The position numbers and the translations under genes were made by a program. This document shows positions 13,849-24,211 of a stretch of DNA of 55,014 bases, in pieces. Under the pieces are notes generated by a model. The model worked only from the letters and a program-made list of their open reading frames with translations. It was not told the DNA's origin and did not search any database. This stretch comes from Candidatus Aminicenantes bacterium JdFR-78 (lineage in GTDB: Bacteria; Acidobacteriota; Aminicenantia; JdFR-78): positions 1 to 55,014 of the forward strand of contig MTON01000002.1 of the NCBI GenBank assembly GCA_002010665.1. The letters are read 5' to 3'. Each line of letters opens with the position of its first letter. Positions within the stretch are counted from its first letter, which is position 1.

Positions 13849-15453
13849 ATGATTAAGTTTTCGGGTTTAAAAAGGGTTATAGGAATTTCATGTTTTATTA
13901 TTTTGTTTTTGTTTTTTGAAGTTACATCTGTACCAGCTTCTGAGGATTTCTTTAAAACCTTAGACTCCTATATTGAAAAGGTTCGCAAAGAATGGGAAGT
14001 TCCAGGCTTGGCTGTGGCACTGGTTAAAGATAGGAAGATGATTTTTGCAAAAGGTTATGGTGTTCGTAAATTAGGAGAATATACACCAGTAACTCCAGAG
14101 ACACTTTTTGGAATTGCCTCTAATACAAAGGCTTTTACTGCAGCTGCACTTGCAATTCTTGTTGACGAAGGAAAAATTAAATGGGATGATCCAGTTATTA
14201 AATATCTTCCAGATTTTTGTATGTATGATCCATATGTAACACGGGAAATCACTGTACGGGATTTGTTGACGCATCGCAGTGGTCTTGGGTTAGGAGCAGG
14301 AGACCTTCTCTACTGGCCTCAATCCACATATTCTCGGAAAGAAATAATCTATCGAGTGCGTTTTATCAAACCAGCTTTTAGTTTTCGAAGCAGATTTGCT
14401 TATTGCAACATTCTTTATATTGTGGCAGGAGAAATTATACCTGCAGTAACAGGAAAGACTTGGTCTGAGTTCATAAAAGAACGAATTTTTAAACCACTTG
14501 GTATGACTTTCAGTAACACGAGTATCAAGGAATTTTGTACAGGTGGCAATATTGCTTCTCCGCATACAAGATTTAATGGGCAAATTAAACCTATAGCTTA
14601 TGAGAATTTGGATAGCATTGGTCCTGCAGGAGCTATTAATTCAAATGTAATTGATATGTCAAAATGGATTATTGTTCAACTCAATTCAGGACTAATTCGG
14701 AATACTAAAAGAGGACAAGTACGTTTATTCAGTGCCGATGCATCAAAAGAAATGTGGTTTCCTCAAACAATTATTCCAATTCGAGAATATCCACCTGAAC
14801 TTTCCAAAATTAAGCCAAATTTTTTTGCATATGGCTTGGGATGGATGTTAAGAGATTATTATGGACACAAAATAGTTTACCATACAGGTTCTATTAGGGG
14901 TATGGTATCTAAGGTCACTCTCGTCCCTGATTTAAAATTAGGCATAGTTGTTCTTACAAATCAGGAAGCGAGACAAGCATATGAAGCAATTACTTATTAT
15001 ATATTGGATTATTATCTTGGTGTCTCTCCTATTGACTGGATTACTGCATTTAAACAAGCAGAGCAAAGAACTAAAAAAAGGATTGCTGAAATTGAGAAAA
15101 ACCTACGTCTTAAAAGAGTCAAAAATACAAAACCTTCTCTTGATATTTCAAAATATACTGGTCGCTATATTGATCAATGGTATGGAGAAATGGTGATCGA
15201 GGAAATAAATAATAAGCTTGTAATGCGATTTCTACATACACCTGCTTTAGTAGGAGATTTGGAGCACTGGCATTATGATACCTTTATCGTGCGATGGAGA
15301 GATCGTAGTCTTAATGCTGATGCTTTTGTAACTTTTATACTCAATTATAAAGGAGAGGTTGAAGAGGTAAAAATGCTTCCTGTTTCGCCACTCACTGATT
15401 TCAGTTTTGATTTTCAAGACCTTCTTTTTAAACCCGTAGGAAAAAAGAGATAG
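13849..15453 (+). CDS. Class-C beta-lactamase-fold serine hydrolase with C-terminal DUF3471-like domain
   Basis: A 534-residue secreted or membrane-anchored serine hydrolase (signal peptide about residues 1-30). The penicillin-binding/class C fold is marked by Ser91-x-x-Lys94 (SNTK), Tyr185-x-Asn187 (YCN) and His345-Thr-Gly (HTG), all present, so it should be active. Residues ~420-525 form a separate lipocalin-like domain of the DUF3471 type. Such proteins are esterases, D-aminopeptidases or peptidoglycan-peptide hydrolases; true beta-lactamase activity is not implied. The GGAGG site fixes the start. It stands alone between a divergent porin gene and a promoter-bearing gap. Confidence 0.88.
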   Translation: MIKFSGLKRVIGISCFIILFLFFEVTSVPASEDFFKTLDSYIEKVRKEWEVPGLAVALVKDRKMIFAKGYGVRKLGEYTPVTPETLFGIASNTKAFTAAALAILVDEGKIKWDDPVIKYLPDFCMYDPYVTREITVRDLLTHRSGLGLGAGDLLYWPQSTYSRKEIIYRVRFIKPAFSFRSRFAYCNILYIVAGEIIPAVTGKTWSEFIKERIFKPLGMTFSNTSIKEFCTGGNIASPHTRFNGQIKPIAYENLDSIGPAGAINSNVIDMSKWIIVQLNSGLIRNTKRGQVRLFSADASKEMWFPQTIIPIREYPPELSKIKPNFFAYGLGWMLRDYYGHKIVYHTGSIRGMVSKVTLVPDLKLGIVVLTNQEARQAYEAITYYILDYYLGVSPIDWITAFKQAEQRTKKRIAEIEKNLRLKRVKNTKPSLDISKYTGRYIDQWYGEMVIEEINNKLVMRFLHTPALVGDLEHWHYDTFIVRWRDRSLNADAFVTFILNYKGEVEEVKMLPVSPLTDFSFDFQDLLFKPVGKKR

Positions 15454-15620: not shown

Positions 15621-16526
15621 ATGGGTGAGAATATGGAGATATATCTCAAAAAGCAAAGAAAGATTTTAATAACTGGTGTTGGAGGACCAGCAGGAAAAGC
15701 ATGTGTTCGTTTTTTTAAAGAAAAGGGATTTTATGTGGTAGGAATAGACATGAGAGAAGTAGAAACAGAAGCAGACAATTTCAAAAAAGTTCCTCCTGCA
15801 TTAGATCCCGCATACATTTCTTGTTTACTCTCTTTAATAAAAGAATTCAATATCTCGCTATTGATACCTACTGTAACTGAAGAGTTGGTATTTGTGGCAC
15901 GAATAAAAGAAGAATTTGAGAAATTGGGGTGTTGTATTTTTATCTCTTCCCCAGAAATCGCTGAAATAGCAAATGATAAATTTTTGACTGCCAAATTTTT
16001 AGAGGAAAAAGGAATTCCAGTGCCTAAAACAGTTCTTCAAGAAAGTTTAAAGTCTTTAAATGCTCTAACCGATATTTTTAAATTTCCAATACTTTCTAAA
16101 CCTCGATTTGGAAGAGGGGGGAGAGGAGTGAAGATATATTATTCTGAAAAGGATTTACTTGAAGAAGAGAGAGAAGGTCTTGTTTTTCAAGAATTCATTC
16201 CAGGCGACGAGTATAATCCCAATCTTTTCGTTTTTCCAGAATCAAGTGTGCTGGTAAATGTAACTTTAAAAAAAACGGCATTGAAAAATGGAATTTTTGG
16301 GAATGCCCTTTCAGTTATAAGAGAAAATAATCCCAAAATCTCTGAGATTTCTAAAGAAGTAGGAGAGATTATGAGACTCCAAGGACCGATTGATATTGAT
16401 CTAAGATTAAGAGCGGATAATGCGCCTGTGATACTTGAGGTAAATGCTCGAGTTGGAGCTAATGTATTGGAAGCACCTGAAGTTTTGGAAACATTACTTG
16501 AAAAATGGTTTGAAATTTCAAGATAA
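15621..16526 (+). CDS. ATP-grasp enzyme, carbamoyl-phosphate-synthase-like
   Basis: A 301-residue ATP-grasp protein. It has an N-terminal Rossmann-like domain (ILITGVGGPAGKACV, VVGIDM), the ATP-binding core (FPILSKPRFGRGGRGV, VFQEFIPGDEY) and a metal-binding end (DIDLRL, ILEVNARVGAN). This is the layout of CarB-like ligases that join a carboxylate to an amine or another nucleophile via an acyl phosphate. It is far shorter than CarB and is not carbamoyl-phosphate synthase; the substrate is unknown. An alternative ATG at 15633 has a GGTGA site in front. It lies 45 bases upstream of the exopolysaccharide-like genes, so a role in making or modifying a sugar is possible but unproven. Confidence 0.8.
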   Translation: MGENMEIYLKKQRKILITGVGGPAGKACVRFFKEKGFYVVGIDMREVETEADNFKKVPPALDPAYISCLLSLIKEFNISLLIPTVTEELVFVARIKEEFEKLGCCIFISSPEIAEIANDKFLTAKFLEEKGIPVPKTVLQESLKSLNALTDIFKFPILSKPRFGRGGRGVKIYYSEKDLLEEEREGLVFQEFIPGDEYNPNLFVFPESSVLVNVTLKKTALKNGIFGNALSVIRENNPKISEISKEVGEIMRLQGPIDIDLRLRADNAPVILEVNARVGANVLEAPEVLETLLEKWFEISR

Positions 16527-16571
16527 TGATAATAGTATAATTTTTCGCTTTAAATTACGATTGGAGTAATT

Positions 16572-17879
16572 ATGAGAAAAAAAATTTTATTACTGGTTGC
16601 TTTAAATTTGTTTTTAAGCCAATTTCTTCTTTCCAAAGATGTTCTGCAAGAATATTATAAACAGGCTCAGGAGGCTTTAAAGAATAAAAATCTTATTAAA
16701 GCGGAGAATCTTTTTCAGTATCTCATCTCACAAGACCCTGAAAATTCGATTTATCATGTGGGATTGGCAGAGACTTATAAGTTGAAAGGAGAGTTTGAAC
16801 ACGCAATTGTAGAGTATAAAAGGGCTCTCGAGCTTAAAAAAGAAAAAGATTTATCAATTATGAACAACATAGCAACTCTATACAAATGGATTAGAAAATA
16901 TAAGGAGTCCGCATCCTGGTTAAATAAGATACTTGAAATTGATCCCGCACATAAAGAGTCCCTTCAGGATATGGAAAATCTTAGATTAAGAAGAGGCCTT
17001 CATTTCGAAATAAACTCCGGAGGATGGGAGGTGGATTATACAAAGAAGGGTTATGACATGCGATTATTCGTGGGCAAGATAGATTGGATTGATATTTATA
17101 TTGGATACTCTAAGGCTGAAAGAATTTTCTATGAAAGGGAAGAACTTTTCGCTAAATTCTATTTTTTTCCCAAATATACAACTTACTTGAAGTTGGAATT
17201 TCAGGATAAAAATTATGATTATCCAAATAATCCTGATCCTGATAGCACTTCTTATGACCATACCCCAGGTATTGAGATAGAAGTTTCGCATATAATTAAT
17301 TCAAAATATAAATTGTCAATTTTATATAAATTTTTTAATCCAAATTTTTACTGGGATGAATTTATGAGGGCATATAATCATAAAATAGAGGGAAGATTTT
17401 CTTCCAAATGGTTTGATTTATTGGAAACCGAAGTTTTTTTTGCTTTGTTAAGAGACCCGGATTCAGCTACTTTTACTGTAAATAAGAATTTAAGAAAAGT
17501 TGCGAGATTTGATTATAAGACGAGATTTTTATTAGGGGGAAATATTCAAATTTCAACAGAGACATTCGAGACAGAAATAAAATACATTCCAAATCGAGAT
17601 CTTGATGATTCATTAAGTTATTCCTTTTTCTTTAACATAGAAAAAGAAATAATAAATAAAAGTATATCTTTTCCTGTCATAATAAGAATGGATTATATTT
17701 ATGACAAATATTCTCAATATAGTTATTTAAGTGGAAAAAGTTCAAAGGTTTATATGTTTACCTTAATAGGTGAACCTTTTTCTTTCTTGAGATTAAAATT
17801 TGGGGGAAAATTTCTTATCAGGCCTCAGAGAAATGAATTTGGATTCTTTATCGGTTTAGTTTATAAATTAAAACTGTGA
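16572..17879 (+). CDS. TPR-containing outer-membrane beta-barrel protein (YaiO/PgaA-like)
   Basis: A 435-residue exported protein: signal peptide (residues ~1-21), three or four tetratricopeptide repeats (~25-145; GLAETYKLKGEFEHAIVEYKRALEL is one, NNIATLYKW the next), then ~290 residues of alternating aromatic strands ending in VYKLKL, as in an outer-membrane barrel. This TPR-then-barrel layout is that of YaiO and, in a larger form, PgaA, the exporter of poly-N-acetylglucosamine. Because the next two genes encode a deacetylase and a processive glycosyltransferase, I infer that it is the outer-membrane outlet for their polysaccharide. Its stop overlaps the next start (TGATG). Confidence 0.78.
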   Translation: MRKKILLLVALNLFLSQFLLSKDVLQEYYKQAQEALKNKNLIKAENLFQYLISQDPENSIYHVGLAETYKLKGEFEHAIVEYKRALELKKEKDLSIMNNIATLYKWIRKYKESASWLNKILEIDPAHKESLQDMENLRLRRGLHFEINSGGWEVDYTKKGYDMRLFVGKIDWIDIYIGYSKAERIFYEREELFAKFYFFPKYTTYLKLEFQDKNYDYPNNPDPDSTSYDHTPGIEIEVSHIINSKYKLSILYKFFNPNFYWDEFMRAYNHKIEGRFSSKWFDLLETEVFFALLRDPDSATFTVNKNLRKVARFDYKTRFLLGGNIQISTETFETEIKYIPNRDLDDSLSYSFFFNIEKEIINKSISFPVIIRMDYIYDKYSQYSYLSGKSSKVYMFTLIGEPFSFLRLKFGGKFLIRPQRNEFGFFIGLVYKLKL

Positions 17880-19744
17880 TGAGAAAAATCTTTCCAGCTG
17901 TAACTATAATTTTATTAATTATTTTTAACTTTTCCTGGTCTCAAAAATATCTTCAGGAATATGAAGAAGGTTATAAGTTATTTAAAGAAAAAAAATATAT
18001 TCAGGCAAAAGAATATCTTGAAAAAGTTCTTCTTAATAATCCAACTCATATTCCTTCATTAAAGCTCCTTGCAGAGATTTACACTCGTCTGAATAGATAT
18101 GAGGAAGCTATTTTTCATTATAAGAGGGTTCTTTTGATTAATCCTTTAGATATCAATACAAAAATAAATTTAGGATATGTATATGCATGGAGTGGAAAAT
18201 ACGACCGTTCAATTGCAATTTTTAAGGAAGTTATAGAAGAGGAACCAGAAAATATAGCTGCGAAAAAGGGACTGGCTACTGTTCTTAGATGGGCTCATCG
18301 TTTTGAAGAGGCGGAAAATATATATTTAGAAATTTTAAAGAAAGATTCTGAAAATATTGATGCTTTGATGGGATTAGCAAAAGTATATTCATTTTTGGGA
18401 AGATTCTCAATAGCCCTGAACTTAATAGAAAAAGCAATAAGAATTTCTCCGGATAATTCTGAATTATATAAAGCAAAAGGTGAAATACTTGCTTGGCAAA
18501 ATCGCTTTCAAGAAGCAGAAATAATTTATCGAAAGGCTCTTACTCTAAATCCAAGAGATCCAGAAATATATCACAATTTAGGAAATCTATATAGCTGGAG
18601 TAAAAAATTTCCAAAAGCAATATTAGCTTATGAGAAAGCTTATCAGCTTGCTCCTTCAAATACAACCTCCCTTCTTGAAATGGCAAAAGTTTATTTGCAG
18701 TGGAATAAAATTTCCCACGCAAAAAAAGTTTTACTTAAAATTTTAAAAATTGATTCAAAAAATGCTCAAGCGCTCAAGCTTCTTCAAGAAATAAAGCAGA
18801 AATCAAAGTGGAATATTAAACAAATTATAGATAAATTCATAGAACCTGTTTTTTTCATTCTAATCCTTTTTTTGGTTCTAATTTATTATTATAAGAAAAA
18901 ACATATACTTAAAAGAAGAAATAAATTCTATCAAATTTTTATTCAATTTTTACTCCCATTTCTTTTATTTATAACTATGGGTGGTTTTGCTCTATTTAAT
19001 TTTGTAGAAATGATCCAGCCATATGCGGATTTCTATATAAAAATTTTAAAGCTAATTATTATTGGTATTCTTGCAATAAGCTTTTATATTTTAGCTCGTT
19101 TCGGAAGTTCTCCAAAACAGAGGAAAAACGTAATTTTAGCAATTGGAGCACATCCAGATGATATTGAGTTAGGATGTGGTGGAACTCTTGCAAAGTTTAA
19201 AGATCAGGGCAGTAAAATTTATGGGATTATTTTTTCTTCAGGAGAAAAGGGAGTTAAAGCCCTAAAAGGAAAAGAAAAAAGAAAAAAGGAAGCTTATAAA
19301 GTTGCAAGGTATCTTGGTTTTGATTATTTATGGATTTGCGAATTCAAGGATACAGAATTGCAAGAGAACATTCCTCAAATGGTTAAAGAAATTGAAGATA
19401 GAATTAGACAACTTAAACCCGATATAGTTTTTACACATTCTCCAGAGGATATACATCAAGATCATAGAGCTGTATTTGAAGCAACAAAAATTGCTTCAAG
19501 AGAAAATGTATCTCTTCTTTGTTATGAGGATGTGAGGACTTCTCACGAATTTATTCCCAATTTTTTTGTAGATATTGAAGATTATATCGACGATAAATTA
19601 AAATTAATTAAATTTCATAAATCACAAAGAAAAAAGCAGTATATGGATTTAGAGTGTATAAAAGGGAGAGCAGCTCATAGAGGATTACAGGCGGGAGTAA
19701 AATATGCTGAAGCATTTTATGTTTATAAAATAGTAGAAAAATAA
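17879..19744 (+). CDS. TPR - transmembrane - PIG-L (LmbE) deacetylase fusion protein
   Basis: A 621-residue three-part protein. A signal/anchor helix is followed by about eight tetratricopeptide repeats (~25-305), three membrane helices (~321-338, 352-375, 387-407) and a C-terminal PIG-L/LmbE domain. The zinc site is AHPDD (~424-428) plus the HSPEDIHQDH segment (~520-529). PIG-L enzymes remove N-acetyl groups from GlcNAc-type substrates. The basic stretches KKKHILKRRNK and SPKQRKN put the deacetylase in the cytoplasm and the TPRs in the periplasm. The ATG at 17879 overlaps the previous stop (TGATG); a GTG three bases earlier is less likely. The next gene overlaps as TAATG, so all three are translationally coupled. 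It probably edits the polymer precursor; the substrate is inferred. Confidence 0.8.
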   Translation: MRKIFPAVTIILLIIFNFSWSQKYLQEYEEGYKLFKEKKYIQAKEYLEKVLLNNPTHIPSLKLLAEIYTRLNRYEEAIFHYKRVLLINPLDINTKINLGYVYAWSGKYDRSIAIFKEVIEEEPENIAAKKGLATVLRWAHRFEEAENIYLEILKKDSENIDALMGLAKVYSFLGRFSIALNLIEKAIRISPDNSELYKAKGEILAWQNRFQEAEIIYRKALTLNPRDPEIYHNLGNLYSWSKKFPKAILAYEKAYQLAPSNTTSLLEMAKVYLQWNKISHAKKVLLKILKIDSKNAQALKLLQEIKQKSKWNIKQIIDKFIEPVFFILILFLVLIYYYKKKHILKRRNKFYQIFIQFLLPFLLFITMGGFALFNFVEMIQPYADFYIKILKLIIIGILAISFYILARFGSSPKQRKNVILAIGAHPDDIELGCGGTLAKFKDQGSKIYGIIFSSGEKGVKALKGKEKRKKEAYKVARYLGFDYLWICEFKDTELQENIPQMVKEIEDRIRQLKPDIVFTHSPEDIHQDHRAVFEATKIASRENVSLLCYEDVRTSHEFIPNFFVDIEDYIDDKLKLIKFHKSQRKKQYMDLECIKGRAAHRGLQAGVKYAEAFYVYKIVEK

Positions 19745-22104
19745 TGAAAGTTCTACTAAGCCTATTTTATGCATTTGGATTGATTGCATTCATACTTGGT
19801 CTTCAAAGTCTTTTTTTCTTTCCTTTAACATTAATTTATGAAGTTTGGAAATTCAGATTTTTTAAAAAAAGAGGAAGGAACTTTACTCCATCTATTAGCG
19901 TTATTGTTCCTGCTTTTAATGAGGAAGATACTATACGAGAATGTGTTGAGTCAATTCTACGATCAGATTATCCAGAGTTCGAAGTGATTGTTGTGAATGA
20001 TGGCTCAACAGATGGTACAGAAAAGGTTATCAAGGATTTAATAGATTCAAAAAAAATTATGTATATAAAAAAACAGAATGAGGGAAAGGCGAGTGCTCTA
20101 AATAAAGGAATTGAAATTGCAAAAGGGGAAATAATAGTTTATACAGATGCTGATAGTATATTTCTTCCAGACACCTTAAGAAATTTGGCTCGCTGGTTTA
20201 TTGACCCTAAAATTCATGCCGTTTGTGGTAATGACACCCCGCTTTCCCCAAAGTCTCCAATACAAAAGTTACTAGTAATTACAACTCATATTGGAACAGG
20301 TTTCGTTAGAAGAGCCTTAAGTATTATTTCTTCTTTACATATCATTACAGGGAATTTAGGTGCTGTTAGAAAAGAGACTATTAAGTCAGTAGGAGGGTTT
20401 ATTACCATCTGGGGAGAGGATTTAGAATTCACTTTCCGGCTTCAAAAAGCGAGAAAAAGGATTATTTATGACTCCTCTCCAATGGTTCTTGCAGAATGCC
20501 CGGGTAATCTTAAAAGTCTTTGGAAACAAAGAGTCAGATGGCTGAGAAGCTATATTAAAGTATGCACCATGCATAAAGATATTTTTTTCAATCCAAAATA
20601 TGCTCCATTCTCTTTCTATCTTCCATTAAACTTTGCATCATTAGTTATAGTCCCTATTCTGCAGCTCCTTACCTTTATTATGCTTCCTTTCTTTCTGAGA
20701 AATGGGGATATAAGCTTCAGTAATATATGGAGTATATTAGCTTACACAGGTTTAATTTTTTTCTTCATTGTTTCAACCTATAGCTGTATTTTGGATAAAA
20801 GTTTCAAAGATCTTCGTTTTCTCCTCCCTTATGGACTTTTAATCCTTCCACTTTCTTATTTCTACAATTTTGTTGTTATTTATTCCCTTTTCAAGGAAAT
20901 AAAAAGGGCAGAAGAAAGGTGGGAAAAACTAGAGAGGAAAAAAACAGCTGAAGTCCGGCCACTTGAGAAGACATTAATAGCTTCATTTGTAAGTATATTT
21001 CTGATTTTAATAATCTCAATATTTATATATTCGATTTATAGAGGACATAAGACCTCTTTCAGCCCTATAAAAATTTCTCCTAAATCAATATTCGCTATTT
21101 CAACACATTTCGATGCATGGGCCGATTGGAGAAAAGCAATCGATTCAGTAATTAATAGCCCTGGTAAAGAATTTATTAATATGATAGGAGTAGGGGCAGG
21201 GAGAGCTGAATGGACTTATTTCAAATGGAAGGCACATAGAGAAAGCTGGAGCAATCATCAGAAAGGAACAGACAGAGATTTATTGCTTCAGGCAATAAAA
21301 TATTTTCATAAAGAAGGTTGGCCAGTAATTGCAATAGTAGATTTCTATGCTCCAAATTATGTTAAAAAGCATCCAGAAAAAGCTGCTACGGGATTTAATG
21401 GGATAAAAAGCTCAAAACAGGTGTGTTTTTTGGAACTTGTTGAGGGCGAATATGGGAAACTAATGCTGGAAATGATAGAATATTTGGCAAAAGAATATCC
21501 GATTAAAGCAATCAATCTTACAGAATTAAACTATTATTCATATTGTTATGACAGTAGATGCTTAAAATCTTATACTAATTTTACAGGAAGAAAAGAATGG
21601 CCAAAGCATTTTTTAACTAAAAAAATATTAAGAGAACACCCGAGTATTGGAGAGTGGAAGTCATATATGATGTCCAAATTCATAAAGAGAGTTTCCAATA
21701 TTGTGCATAAATATAAGAAGGAGCTTTATGTTGATGTCCCTGTGAGCTGGAGAAATTTTCATAATAATGCAAAGGAATATGGATTGGATTATAACTTAAT
21801 TCTTGCTCATGCAGATAAAATAATAATCTGGAATTATTTTTACCTTAAAGGGAAAAGTCCTGAAATTTCCCGTCAATTATCAGAATATCTTGTAAAAAAT
21901 TTCGATTCTAGAAAAATAATAATGTCGATTGGTCTGTGGGGGAAAAGGGAGCATGTTTCCCCTAATGAAATGGCTATAGCGATTTTTCAGACTTTAAAGG
22001 GAGGAACTACTAATTTATGGATTACTCCAAATCATCTTTTAACTCGCGGACATTGGATTAAAATGAGAGAAATTTTAAATTTAAGAAGTTCTGGAAATTT
22101 CTAA
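19744..22104 (+). CDS. Processive GT2 glycosyltransferase fused to a C-terminal hydrolase-like domain
   Basis: A 786-residue membrane protein. Residues 1-30 are a membrane helix and ~48-280 a processive GT2 domain with NDGSTDG (Asp86), TDADS (Asp135/Asp137), GED (225-226) and QRVRW (262-266), the pattern of PgaC/NodC/hyaluronan-type synthases. Three or four helices follow to ~395, then a helix at ~412-432 leading to a ~350-residue C-terminal domain. That domain resembles TIM-barrel glycoside-hydrolase-like proteins (IVDFYAPNY, INLTELNYYSY with a candidate acidic residue, KIIIWNYFYL). In PgaB a hydrolase domain is fused to the deacetylase; here one appears on the synthase. The C-terminal domain probably faces the periplasm. 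The hydrolase assignment is less certain than the GT2 part. Confidence 0.82.
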   Translation: MKVLLSLFYAFGLIAFILGLQSLFFFPLTLIYEVWKFRFFKKRGRNFTPSISVIVPAFNEEDTIRECVESILRSDYPEFEVIVVNDGSTDGTEKVIKDLIDSKKIMYIKKQNEGKASALNKGIEIAKGEIIVYTDADSIFLPDTLRNLARWFIDPKIHAVCGNDTPLSPKSPIQKLLVITTHIGTGFVRRALSIISSLHIITGNLGAVRKETIKSVGGFITIWGEDLEFTFRLQKARKRIIYDSSPMVLAECPGNLKSLWKQRVRWLRSYIKVCTMHKDIFFNPKYAPFSFYLPLNFASLVIVPILQLLTFIMLPFFLRNGDISFSNIWSILAYTGLIFFFIVSTYSCILDKSFKDLRFLLPYGLLILPLSYFYNFVVIYSLFKEIKRAEERWEKLERKKTAEVRPLEKTLIASFVSIFLILIISIFIYSIYRGHKTSFSPIKISPKSIFAISTHFDAWADWRKAIDSVINSPGKEFINMIGVGAGRAEWTYFKWKAHRESWSNHQKGTDRDLLLQAIKYFHKEGWPVIAIVDFYAPNYVKKHPEKAATGFNGIKSSKQVCFLELVEGEYGKLMLEMIEYLAKEYPIKAINLTELNYYSYCYDSRCLKSYTNFTGRKEWPKHFLTKKILREHPSIGEWKSYMMSKFIKRVSNIVHKYKKELYVDVPVSWRNFHNNAKEYGLDYNLILAHADKIIIWNYFYLKGKSPEISRQLSEYLVKNFDSRKIIMSIGLWGKREHVSPNEMAIAIFQTLKGGTTNLWITPNHLLTRGHWIKMREILNLRSSGNF

Positions 22105-22258: not shown

Positions 22259-24211
22259 ATGAAGAATATTGGAGTATTCATTTGTCATTGCGGAATTAAT
22301 ATAGCAGGAACAGTGGATGTAAAAAGGCTTGCTGAAGAGGTAACCGAGTTTGACGATGTTAAAATGGCGATTGACTATGTATATATGTGTTCGGACCCTG
22401 GTCAGAATTTAATTAAAGAAAAGATTAAAGAGCAGGAATTAAATAAAGTCATTATAGCATGTTGTTCTCCTTCTCTCCATGAAGTTACTTTCCGTAACAC
22501 AGTTCAATCTGTTGGACTGAATCCATATCAGTGTGAAATTGCTAATATAAGAGAACAGTGTAGTTGGGTTCATGCAGATAAACAAAAAGCGACGCAAAAA
22601 GCAAAGGAAATTATTGCTGCTGTAATTGAAAAAATAAAATTAAATGAATCTCTTTCGCCAATAAAGGTTCCAGTAATAAAAAGAGCTCTTATAATTGGTG
22701 GAGGGGTAAGTGGAATTCATGCAGCTCTAAGCATAGCATATAATGGTTATGAAGTAGTTTTGGTTGAGCGAGAAGCTTCAATTGGTGGGCACATGGCAGA
22801 ACTTTCAGAGACTTATTTAACTCAGGAATGCTCTCCTTGTCTCTTATCATCTAAGATTGTTGAAGTTCAAAATCATCCTTTAATAACAATTCTTACTAAT
22901 TCAGAAATAGAAGAACTTGATGGTTATGTAGGAAATTTCAAAGTGAAAATAAAAACTAAAGCTACTTTTGTGGACCAAGAGAAATGTGATGGTTGTGGGA
23001 TATGTGTGGAAAAATGCCCTGTCTCTATCCCCTGGCAATCAGAGGAGATTTCTGGTAAAACTCGTGCTATATATATTCCATATCCTCAGACTATAGGAAA
23101 TAAAGCAGTAATTGATAAAAAAATCTGTAAATATTTCACCGAAGGATGTACTAAGTGTAAAGAAGCCTGTCCAAAAAATGCTATTAATTTTAAACAAACA
23201 GACAAAATTAGAGAGGAAGCAGTGGGATCAATAATAGTGGCAACTGGTTACAGTCTTTATCCGAAAGAAAAACTGGGTGAATATGGCTATGGAAGGTATA
23301 AAGATGTTATAGATGGGCTACAATTTGAGAGACTAATCTCAGTTTGGGGGCAGCAAAATCGAGAAATAAGAAGACCATCAGATGGTAAAATACCTCGAGA
23401 AGTTGTATTTATTCAATGTGTAGGATCTCGAGATCCAGAACATGGAGTTCCATATTGTTCAAAAATTTGCTGTATGTATGTGGCAAAGCATGCAAAACTT
23501 TATAAGCAAGCAGTACCTGAAGGGCAAGCCTATATTTTTTATATAGATGTAAGAGCAGGAGGAAAGGGTTATGATGAATTCGTGCAAAATGCTATAGAAG
23601 AAGACGGACTTTATTATATAAGAGGGAAAGTTTCAAAAATTTTTCAAGAGAATGGAAAGATTATCGTGTGGGGTGTTGATACACTTGCTGGGAGACAAAT
23701 TGAAATTGCAGCTGATCTTGTTGTTTTGGCCACTGCAATTATTCCAAGTAAAGGTGCAAAAGAATTAGCTAATAAACTAAAAATTTCTTCGGATGAATAT
23801 GGTTTCTTTTCCGAAGTTCATCCAAAGCTTAGACCTGTAGAAAGTCCTACTCCAGGCATTTATCTTGCGGGTTGTGCCCAAGCTCCAAGAGATATCCCGG
23901 AGTCAGTTTCTCATGCATTAGGTGCAGCGAGTAAAGTTGCAGGTCTATTTTCAGAAGATTTACTTTCTCATGAGCCAATAGTTGTATGGGTAGATGAAGA
24001 TTTGTGTAAGGCTTGTGGAATTTGTGTTGAAGTATGTCCTTATAAAGCAAGAGAAATTGATAAATGGAAAAAAATAGCAAAAGTTATTGAAGTTCTTTGT
24101 CAAGGATGTGGAGCGTGTGTAACTGCATGTCCAAATAGTGCCACTCAACAGCGAAATCTTACTTCTAAACAAGTATTTAATATGATAGATGCAGCAATTT
24201 CTATTAAATAA
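22259..24211 (+). CDS. hdrA: Heterodisulfide reductase subunit A-like bifurcating flavoprotein (HdrA, copy 1)
   Basis: A 650-residue HdrA of full normal length. Order: N-terminal domain (GVFICHCGINIAG), FAD-binding GGGVSG followed by GGHMAEL and the cysteine pair in ECSPC, an inserted two-cluster ferredoxin domain (CDGCGICVEKCP and CKYFTEGCTKCKEACP), the thioredoxin-reductase-like remainder, and a C-terminal two-[4Fe-4S] ferredoxin domain (CKACGICVEVCP, CQGCGACVTACP). In methanogens the HdrA flavin splits electron pairs between ferredoxin and the heterodisulfide. No methanogenesis genes are here, so the physiological acceptor differs. The start matches the paralog at 37456 residue by residue. 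hdrC follows after six bases. Confidence 0.95.
   Translation: MKNIGVFICHCGINIAGTVDVKRLAEEVTEFDDVKMAIDYVYMCSDPGQNLIKEKIKEQELNKVIIACCSPSLHEVTFRNTVQSVGLNPYQCEIANIREQCSWVHADKQKATQKAKEIIAAVIEKIKLNESLSPIKVPVIKRALIIGGGVSGIHAALSIAYNGYEVVLVEREASIGGHMAELSETYLTQECSPCLLSSKIVEVQNHPLITILTNSEIEELDGYVGNFKVKIKTKATFVDQEKCDGCGICVEKCPVSIPWQSEEISGKTRAIYIPYPQTIGNKAVIDKKICKYFTEGCTKCKEACPKNAINFKQTDKIREEAVGSIIVATGYSLYPKEKLGEYGYGRYKDVIDGLQFERLISVWGQQNREIRRPSDGKIPREVVFIQCVGSRDPEHGVPYCSKICCMYVAKHAKLYKQAVPEGQAYIFYIDVRAGGKGYDEFVQNAIEEDGLYYIRGKVSKIFQENGKIIVWGVDTLAGRQIEIAADLVVLATAIIPSKGAKELANKLKISSDEYGFFSEVHPKLRPVESPTPGIYLAGCAQAPRDIPESVSHALGAASKVAGLFSEDLLSHEPIVVWVDEDLCKACGICVEVCPYKAREIDKWKKIAKVIEVLCQGCGACVTACPNSATQQRNLTSKQVFNMIDAAISIK

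Follow-up and report, generated by a model that had tools for sequence, protein, structure and literature searches.

A putative exopolysaccharide cassette pairing a PIG-L deacetylase, predicted to be cytoplasmic, with an ATP-grasp ligase in Candidatus Aminicenantes

Introduction

Known poly-N-acetylglucosamine (PNAG) systems deacetylate their polymer after its exit from the cytoplasm, PgaB being periplasmic. Four genes at positions 15621-22104 of the DNA analyzed here (the window, a stretch of 55,014 nucleotides from contig MTON01000002.1 of Candidatus Aminicenantes bacterium JdFR-78) raise the question of whether an amino-sugar polymer could instead be deacetylated on the cytoplasmic side. 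The genes are open, in tandem, and all on the + strand. The original prediction saw in them a reorganized exopolysaccharide system, and the observation is real and its coordinates are right, with small overlaps between genes (4 nucleotides between the stop of the outer-membrane protein gene and the GTG start of the deacetylase gene, and 1 nucleotide between the latter and the synthase gene) and Pfam domains above cut-off. Pfam, AlphaFold2 (AF2), and hydropathy agree on a TPR-barrel outer-membrane protein, a TPR-membrane-deacetylase, and a processive GT2, as described there. The reading that we favor, at a probability of roughly 0.6, is that the genes form a synthase-dependent exopolysaccharide system, that its product is an amino-sugar polymer, most likely derived from N-acetylglucosamine (GlcNAc), and that N-deacetylation takes place on the cytoplasmic side of the membrane. 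The features are listed with the evidence for each in parentheses.

15621..16526, + strand: ATP-grasp carboxylate-amine ligase, 301 amino acids, PylC-like N domain plus ATP-grasp_3 (Pfam above cut-off; intact motifs)
16572..17879, + strand: predicted outer-membrane export protein with signal peptide, about four TPR, and beta-barrel (TPR hits, AF2, Foldseek, barrel conservation)
About 16635-16991, + strand: TPR part of the outer-membrane protein (Pfam TPR)
About 17004-17876, + strand: beta-barrel part of the outer-membrane protein (AF2, Foldseek)
17876..19744, + strand: fusion of TPR, three transmembrane helices, and PIG-L de-N-acetylase, 622 amino acids, GTG start (Pfam TPR and PF02585, motifs, hydropathy)
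18836..19093, + strand: the three transmembrane helices, residues 321-406, between TPR and PIG-L (hydropathy 2.2-2.7; lysine plus arginine 7 / 1 / 4)
19127..19741, + strand: PIG-L (CE14-type) catalytic domain (PF02585)
19744..22104, + strand: GT2 synthase with a fused hydrolase-like TIM barrel, 786 amino acids (Pfam, NCBIfam)
19885..20553, + strand: processive GT2 catalytic domain with motifs DGS, DAD, GEDLE, and QRVRW (Pfam, TIGR03937)
20965..21033, + strand: last transmembrane helix of the synthase, putative anchor of the C-terminal domain (hydropathy 2.85)
21064..22101, + strand: predicted periplasmic TIM barrel of PgaB/GH153-like fold (AF2, Foldseek)
Codon 21523-21525, + strand: candidate catalytic Glu594 (NLTEL) at the end of beta-4 of the TIM barrel (invariance)

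The deacetylase and its predicted location

The catalytic domain of the deacetylase matches PIG-L (PF02585) at 105.7 bits against a cut-off of 28.2, with TPR in the same protein also above cut-off, and the cassette has no Pfam match to the CE4 polysaccharide deacetylase that forms the N domain of PgaB; the enzyme is thus, as originally described, PIG-L rather than of the PgaB deacetylase fold. Its zinc/catalytic motifs, AHPDD and DxHxDH, are invariant across five homologues. Its nearest relatives in the PDB are the diacetylchitobiose deacetylases 8bgn and 3we7, and it is 37% identical (E 4e-28) to YaiS of Escherichia coli, which is apparently soluble.

Three hydrophobic helices lie upstream of the catalytic domain in each of the five homologues, and lysine and arginine residues number 3-9 in the loop between helices 1 and 2, 0-1 between helices 2 and 3, and 2-5 past helix 3. 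This positive-inside pattern, together with the external N-terminal signal peptide and TPR of the diderm proteins, would place PIG-L in the cytoplasm in five of five cases, with the TPR of the diderm form predicted to be periplasmic. The original suggestion that PIG-L takes the place of the periplasmic PgaB deacetylase is disfavored by this topology.

The source genome encodes a second PIG-L protein on contig C6 (locus L032, 1544-3550), convergent with an adjoining GT4-like glycosyltransferase, and the two are possibly a BshA/BshB-like pair.

The synthase, its C-terminal domain, and the exporter

The synthase matches Glycos_transf_2 of Pfam at 126.5 bits, and its best NCBIfam family is PgaC_IcaA (TIGR03937), at 160.9 bits under a cut-off of 422. 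It is 29% identical to E. coli PgaC over 279 amino acids and lies nearer to PgaC than to YaiP (121 versus 69 bits). The GT2 motifs are invariant in five homologues, and both the processive QxxRW motif and C-terminal transmembrane helices are present.

The C-terminal 346 residues have a sole, sub-threshold Pfam match, to GHL6 (E 0.03), but their modeled structure bears out the earlier description of a hydrolase-like tail. AF2, run on an input alignment without the Arthrobacter row, gives a confident TIM barrel, with a predicted local distance difference test score (pLDDT) of 82.7 and a predicted template-modeling score (pTM) of 0.86. Its best Foldseek match is the C-terminal domain of E. coli PgaB (4p7o; E 1.2e-10, template-modeling score 0.64), and more PgaB entries lie within the top nine. 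Glu594, at the end of beta-4, is invariant in six homologues. The proposed catalytic Asp474 of PgaB aligns with the catalytic aspartates of GH20/GH18 enzymes (PMC5933820), and Glu594 may, by analogy rather than by superposition, occupy the equivalent place.

The barrel should be periplasmic, because its unfused homologues carry export signals: the stand-alone Arthrobacter protein is a predicted lipoprotein (LTGVAAC), and the archaeal one has a signal-like segment at its N terminus. The fused synthase has 10 lysine and arginine residues in the loop preceding its last helix, which fits the view of that helix as a retained signal anchor.

The AF2 model of the outer-membrane protein (pLDDT 71, pTM 0.60) is weaker than that of the tail and consists of eight helices followed by about 16-17 strands. 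Its best Foldseek match is the PelBC exporter (9h80), with the PgaA barrel (4y25) also listed, and the barrel is conserved in both cassettes of the Nitrospirota phylum described below. The structure predictions that the original prediction had called for thus gave a PgaB-like TIM barrel for the tail and a PelB/PgaA-like fold for the exporter. Against the PgaA family (TIGR03939), the protein reaches 14.5 bits versus a cut-off of 366.65, over the TPR part only, and NCBIfam and blastp comparisons gave no match to YaiO.

These features bear on the nature of the product, which could be a glycolipid: GT2 would add a single GlcNAc to a membrane lipid, the cytoplasmic PIG-L would deacetylate it, the ATP-grasp enzyme would aminoacylate it, and the barrels would transport or trim the lipid-linked sugar. 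PIG-L enzymes classically use single GlcNAc conjugates, that of the cassette is membrane-bound, and a glycosyltransferase paired with a cytosolic deacetylase makes glucosaminyl-phosphatidylglycerol in Pseudomonas (gpgSDF, PMC12713373). We nevertheless judge such a pathway unlikely, since a lipid product would need neither a processive GT2 that has QxxRW and C-terminal helices and is closest to PgaC, nor an extracytoplasmic domain of polymer-hydrolase fold, nor a TPR/barrel exporter nearest to PelB and PgaA. The gpgSDF operon shares with the cassette a glycosyltransferase and a deacetylase thought to be cytoplasmic, but it serves to place a single sugar on a lipid, includes a putative flippase, and has no export barrel and no hydrolase.

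Recurrence of the cassette

The TIM-barrel tail was sought in 84,980 species genomes, with search patterns that reach close relatives only, and three loci were returned. It is found in none of the 60 nearest genomes and in none of 396 genomes of the window's phylum except the source genome itself; within that phylum, the outer-membrane protein has TPR-level matches only. No relatives of the cassette were found in viral contigs and phages.

In a Nitrospirae metagenome-assembled genome (MAG; locus L003), the four genes recur in unchanged order, and neighboring genes overlap by 25, 1, and 4 nucleotides. When 396 Nitrospirota-phylum genomes were searched, a second such cassette came to light (G468); its gene order is again identical, its genes overlap by 14, 1, and 4 nucleotides, and its outer-membrane protein is without the TPR part. 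The three architectures of the original prediction therefore do occur together, in the same order, in two MAGs of this phylum. A Euryarchaeota MAG (L004) encodes PIG-L, ATP-grasp, GT2, and TIM barrel as separate genes in that order; its PIG-L has the three transmembrane helices but no TPR, its TIM-barrel protein is separate and signal-bearing, and the locus has no outer-membrane protein. A plasmid search added a plasmid of Arthrobacter sp. StoSoilB13 (L013), on which four unfused genes follow the archaeal order, likewise without TPR or outer-membrane parts.

The archaeal MAG also contains a second TIM-barrel gene (L005, 4845-6098), without adjoining synthase genes, directly 3' of an frhADGB-like F420-hydrogenase operon, a position that supports the archaeal origin of the MAG.

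The core of the cassette is thus ATP-grasp, PIG-L, GT2, and TIM barrel, to which the diderm form adds the outer-membrane barrel and TPR and in which the TIM barrel is fused to the synthase. Chance juxtaposition is rejected because the same gene order occurs in two more genomes and the functions recur, unfused, in two others. Pairwise identity matrices of the four components over the five loci correlate at r = 0.79-0.93, which fits their inheritance as a unit. The outer-membrane parts are missing exactly in the archaeon and in Arthrobacter, which are single-membrane cells, and this fits a role in export for those parts. The cassette is rare and seems to be inherited as a block; two bacterial phyla have the diderm form, and the simpler one is found in an archaeon and an actinobacterium.

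The ATP-grasp ligase

The original prediction noted that an ATP-grasp gene precedes the set. The position is right, but the gene is an integral component rather than a neighbor: it is present in all five loci, and the idea of a bystander was rejected on that account. The window's protein matches ATP-grasp_3 and PylC-like_N of Pfam above curated cut-offs, with the motifs SKPRFGRGGR, GPIDIDLR, and LEVNAR intact, as at every partner-bearing locus, and the ATP/Mg-binding signatures KP, RGGR, and LE[IV]NAR are intact in each of the five partner-bearing loci.

At a threshold of E <= 1e-90, orthologues were found in eight of 236 Nitrospirota-phylum genomes, and only two of the eight have the remaining three cassette genes. 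The six orphans (L048 6555-7436; L049 6765-7673; L050 2458-3426; L051 6241-7128; L052 485-1375; L053 6485-7477) have no adjoining exopolysaccharide partner genes. Their genomes contain no TIM barrel, by a profile search of the 396 genomes of that phylum, and no close PIG-L, a single weak match (E 8e-19) having been obtained. The orphans sit behind DUF6502 and DUF5666 genes, as does the ATP-grasp gene of G468. A run of VIT1, DHH/CBS/DRTGG pyrophosphatase, DUF6502, DUF5666, and ATP-grasp genes (L010, 1512-6032) is conserved in several genomes of the phylum.

Every orphan has at least one signature residue altered, by differing changes: R153W, E261D, and N263H in G463; G155E in G423; N263K in G478; R153M, G155S, and D246N in G441; and E261D plus other changes in G432 and G457. 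G463 is the sister of G468, and their ATP-grasps are 88% identical. The DNA of the two matches at 91-92% until the first bases of the outer-membrane protein gene and again from 24 bp past the synthase stop, so the three partner genes form a block that one sister has and the other lacks. For this pair, the ratio of nonsynonymous to synonymous substitution rates (dN/dS) is 0.19-0.23 for the ATP-grasp gene, 0.06-0.13 for its pyrophosphatase, DUF6502, and aminotransferase neighbors, and 0.30-0.44 for DUF5666. A simple count of altered signatures overstates the case, because the lineages are related and, in a leave-one-out control, partner-bearing ATP-grasps likewise deviate at otherwise invariant columns outside the signatures. 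The pattern is suggestive, although not proof, of relaxed constraint on ATP-grasp catalysis where the partners are absent.

Relationship to known systems

The cassette shares with the Pga/Hms/Bps (PNAG) systems a processive GT2, of which PgaC is the closest relative, TPR and an outer-membrane barrel, a TIM barrel whose best fold match is the C-terminal domain of PgaB, and a de-N-acetylase. It differs in that the Pga deacetylase is a periplasmic CE4 enzyme, whereas that of the cassette is PIG-L/CE14 and predicted to be cytoplasmic, in the fusion of the hydrolase to the synthase, and in the constant presence of the ATP-grasp gene. The likeness to Pga drawn at the outset is structurally sound with respect to the tail (PgaB), the barrel (PelB and PgaA), and the GT2 (best match PgaC/IcaA), but it stays below equivalog level; the hydrolase and barrel have no sequence-level similarity to PgaB or PgaA. 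Because the equivalog tests fail and the hydrolase is linked by fold only, we do not class the cassette as a Pga system, though a good part of it can be expected to function in the same way.

It could still be argued, from the one-by-one match of functions to PgaA, PgaB, and PgaC, that this is a divergent Pga system making ordinary, partly deacetylated PNAG, with a periplasmic PIG-L replacing the PgaB deacetylase and an unrelated ATP-grasp neighbor. We find this even harder to accept than a glycolipid pathway, given the predicted cytoplasmic location of all five PIG-L homologues, the membership of ATP-grasp in the set at four other loci, bacterial and archaeal, and the failure of every Pga equivalog model to reach its cut-off. 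Nor does a PgaD gene stand beside the cassette: no candidate was found in it at any of the five loci, the rest of the genome not being covered by that search.

The nearest named relative is the uncharacterized yaiS-yaiP-yaiX-yaiO cluster of E. coli, which likewise brings together PIG-L, GT2, an outer-membrane barrel, and an acyl-group enzyme. In the yai cluster, the acyl-group enzyme is an acetyltransferase instead of ATP-grasp (the window's gene run has no acetyltransferase), PIG-L is apparently soluble, TPR and hydrolase domain are absent, and the barrel is unrelated in sequence. Intact yaiS-yaiP-acetyltransferase-yaiO clusters are found on E. coli plasmids (L016, 6959-10157; L017, 6977-10174), whereas in K-12 an IS2 element disrupts yaiX.

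This single run of genes, and the resemblance of YaiS to the window's PIG-L, lend some support to a variant of the favored reading that differs in the substrate of PIG-L: together with an acyl-transferring enzyme, PIG-L would swap the N-acyl group while the sugar is still bound to its nucleotide and not yet polymerized, with ATP-grasp replacing the acetyltransferase. Such remodeling of the monomer is conceivable but doubtful. PgaC, not YaiP, is the closer relative of the GT2, the barrel has no similarity to YaiO, yai loci have neither hydrolase domain nor TPR, the yai cluster is itself uncharacterized, and action of PIG-L on nucleotide sugars is an assumption.

The Pel system (PelA, PelB, PelF) resembles the cassette in combining deacetylase and hydrolase processing with TPR-barrel export, and PelB is the best match to the fold of the cassette barrel. 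The Pel synthase belongs to a different family from the cassette GT2. Deacetylation of Pel is periplasmic and performed by PelA (PMC12022489), in contrast to the predicted cytoplasmic action of PIG-L.

A survey of exopolysaccharide operons mentions neither PIG-L, LmbE, nor ATP-grasp, but describes fusions of GT domains with PgaB-type deacetylases, which partly anticipate a synthase that carries a polymer-modifying domain (PMC7112194). In the literature searched, no characterized system came up that joins an exopolysaccharide synthase to PIG-L, LmbE, or ATP-grasp, in agreement with the original prediction, which knew of no characterized system so arranged; the pairing of PIG-L with a synthase is, however, not unprecedented in view of yaiSPXO, which already combines PIG-L, GT2, and a barrel. 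With a processive GT2, a predicted periplasmic TPR scaffold, an outer-membrane barrel, and a polymer-modifying enzyme in one operon, the cassette has the broad characteristics of synthase-dependent secretion, and it is best described, from sequence and modeled folds, as a variant within the synthase-dependent exopolysaccharide systems.

Proposed mechanism

ATP-grasp enzymes join carboxylates to amines. The non-reducing end is where CE14 enzymes act (PMC9779004) and where, according to a proposal for PgaC (PMC9384988), the chain grows; we therefore propose that deacetylation takes place during synthesis. As its family would suggest, GT2 would extend the chain from a UDP-sugar at the cytoplasmic face and push it through the inner membrane. 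Beside it, the membrane-tethered PIG-L, for which the cytoplasmic side is supported by topology, would deacetylate the non-reducing terminal sugar of the growing chain or, possibly, the sugar nucleotide. At the weakest step of the scheme, ATP-grasp might then acylate the freed amine with a carboxylic acid, which could be an amino acid. In the periplasm, the modeled PgaB-like TIM barrel may cleave the emerging chain, and the TPR of the deacetylase protein may extend through the periplasm as far as the barrel protein, the presumed exporter of the chain. In single-membrane organisms, the four enzymes would do without TPR and barrel.

A more ambitious form of this scheme is a cross-domain system in which a cytoplasmic PIG-L deacetylates the growing end while synthesis proceeds and ATP-grasp loads an amino acid or other acid onto every freed amine, giving a patterned N-acyl polyglucosamine, aminoacylated for instance, unlike known exopolysaccharides. 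We offer it as speculation, a little less probable than remodeling of the monomer.

Several points weigh against deacetylation within an exopolysaccharide system as favored here. GT2 and PIG-L could also yield a glycolipid. The template-modeling score of 0.64 between tail and PgaB comes with only 13% identity, no sequence similarity between them is detected by hhalign (E 0.57), and neither TIM barrels nor outer-membrane barrels give specific fold matches. A count of hydropathy peaks in GT2 leaves the membrane side of its tail ambiguous. Finally, the orphan ATP-grasps retain open frames and dN/dS is below 1, so the ligase, or a non-catalytic version of it, may also serve another role.

Genomic surroundings

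Promoter- and terminator-like sites at the locus are no more frequent than in shuffled sequence. Just 5' of the cassette (window 13849-15453) is a gene for a beta-lactamase-family serine hydrolase with DUF3471, which has no counterpart beside the related cassettes. On the other side, window 22259-42282 holds a long series of HdrA-like, HdrB/C-like, NuoF/G-like, MvhD-like, and 2-oxoacid:ferredoxin oxidoreductase genes, with HdrA-like copies repeated at 22259, 28368, and 37456, suggesting several electron-bifurcating complexes.

Perspective

The cassette gives the yai cluster of E. coli a broader family context, and its outer-membrane parts occur only in the cassettes of cells with an outer membrane. 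Small complete sets, such as the four genes of Arthrobacter, suit expression tests. If the proposal is true, a deacetylase on the side of the synthase would let the cell set the pattern of free and re-acylated amines during synthesis of the chain, a distinct logic for making an amino-sugar polymer.

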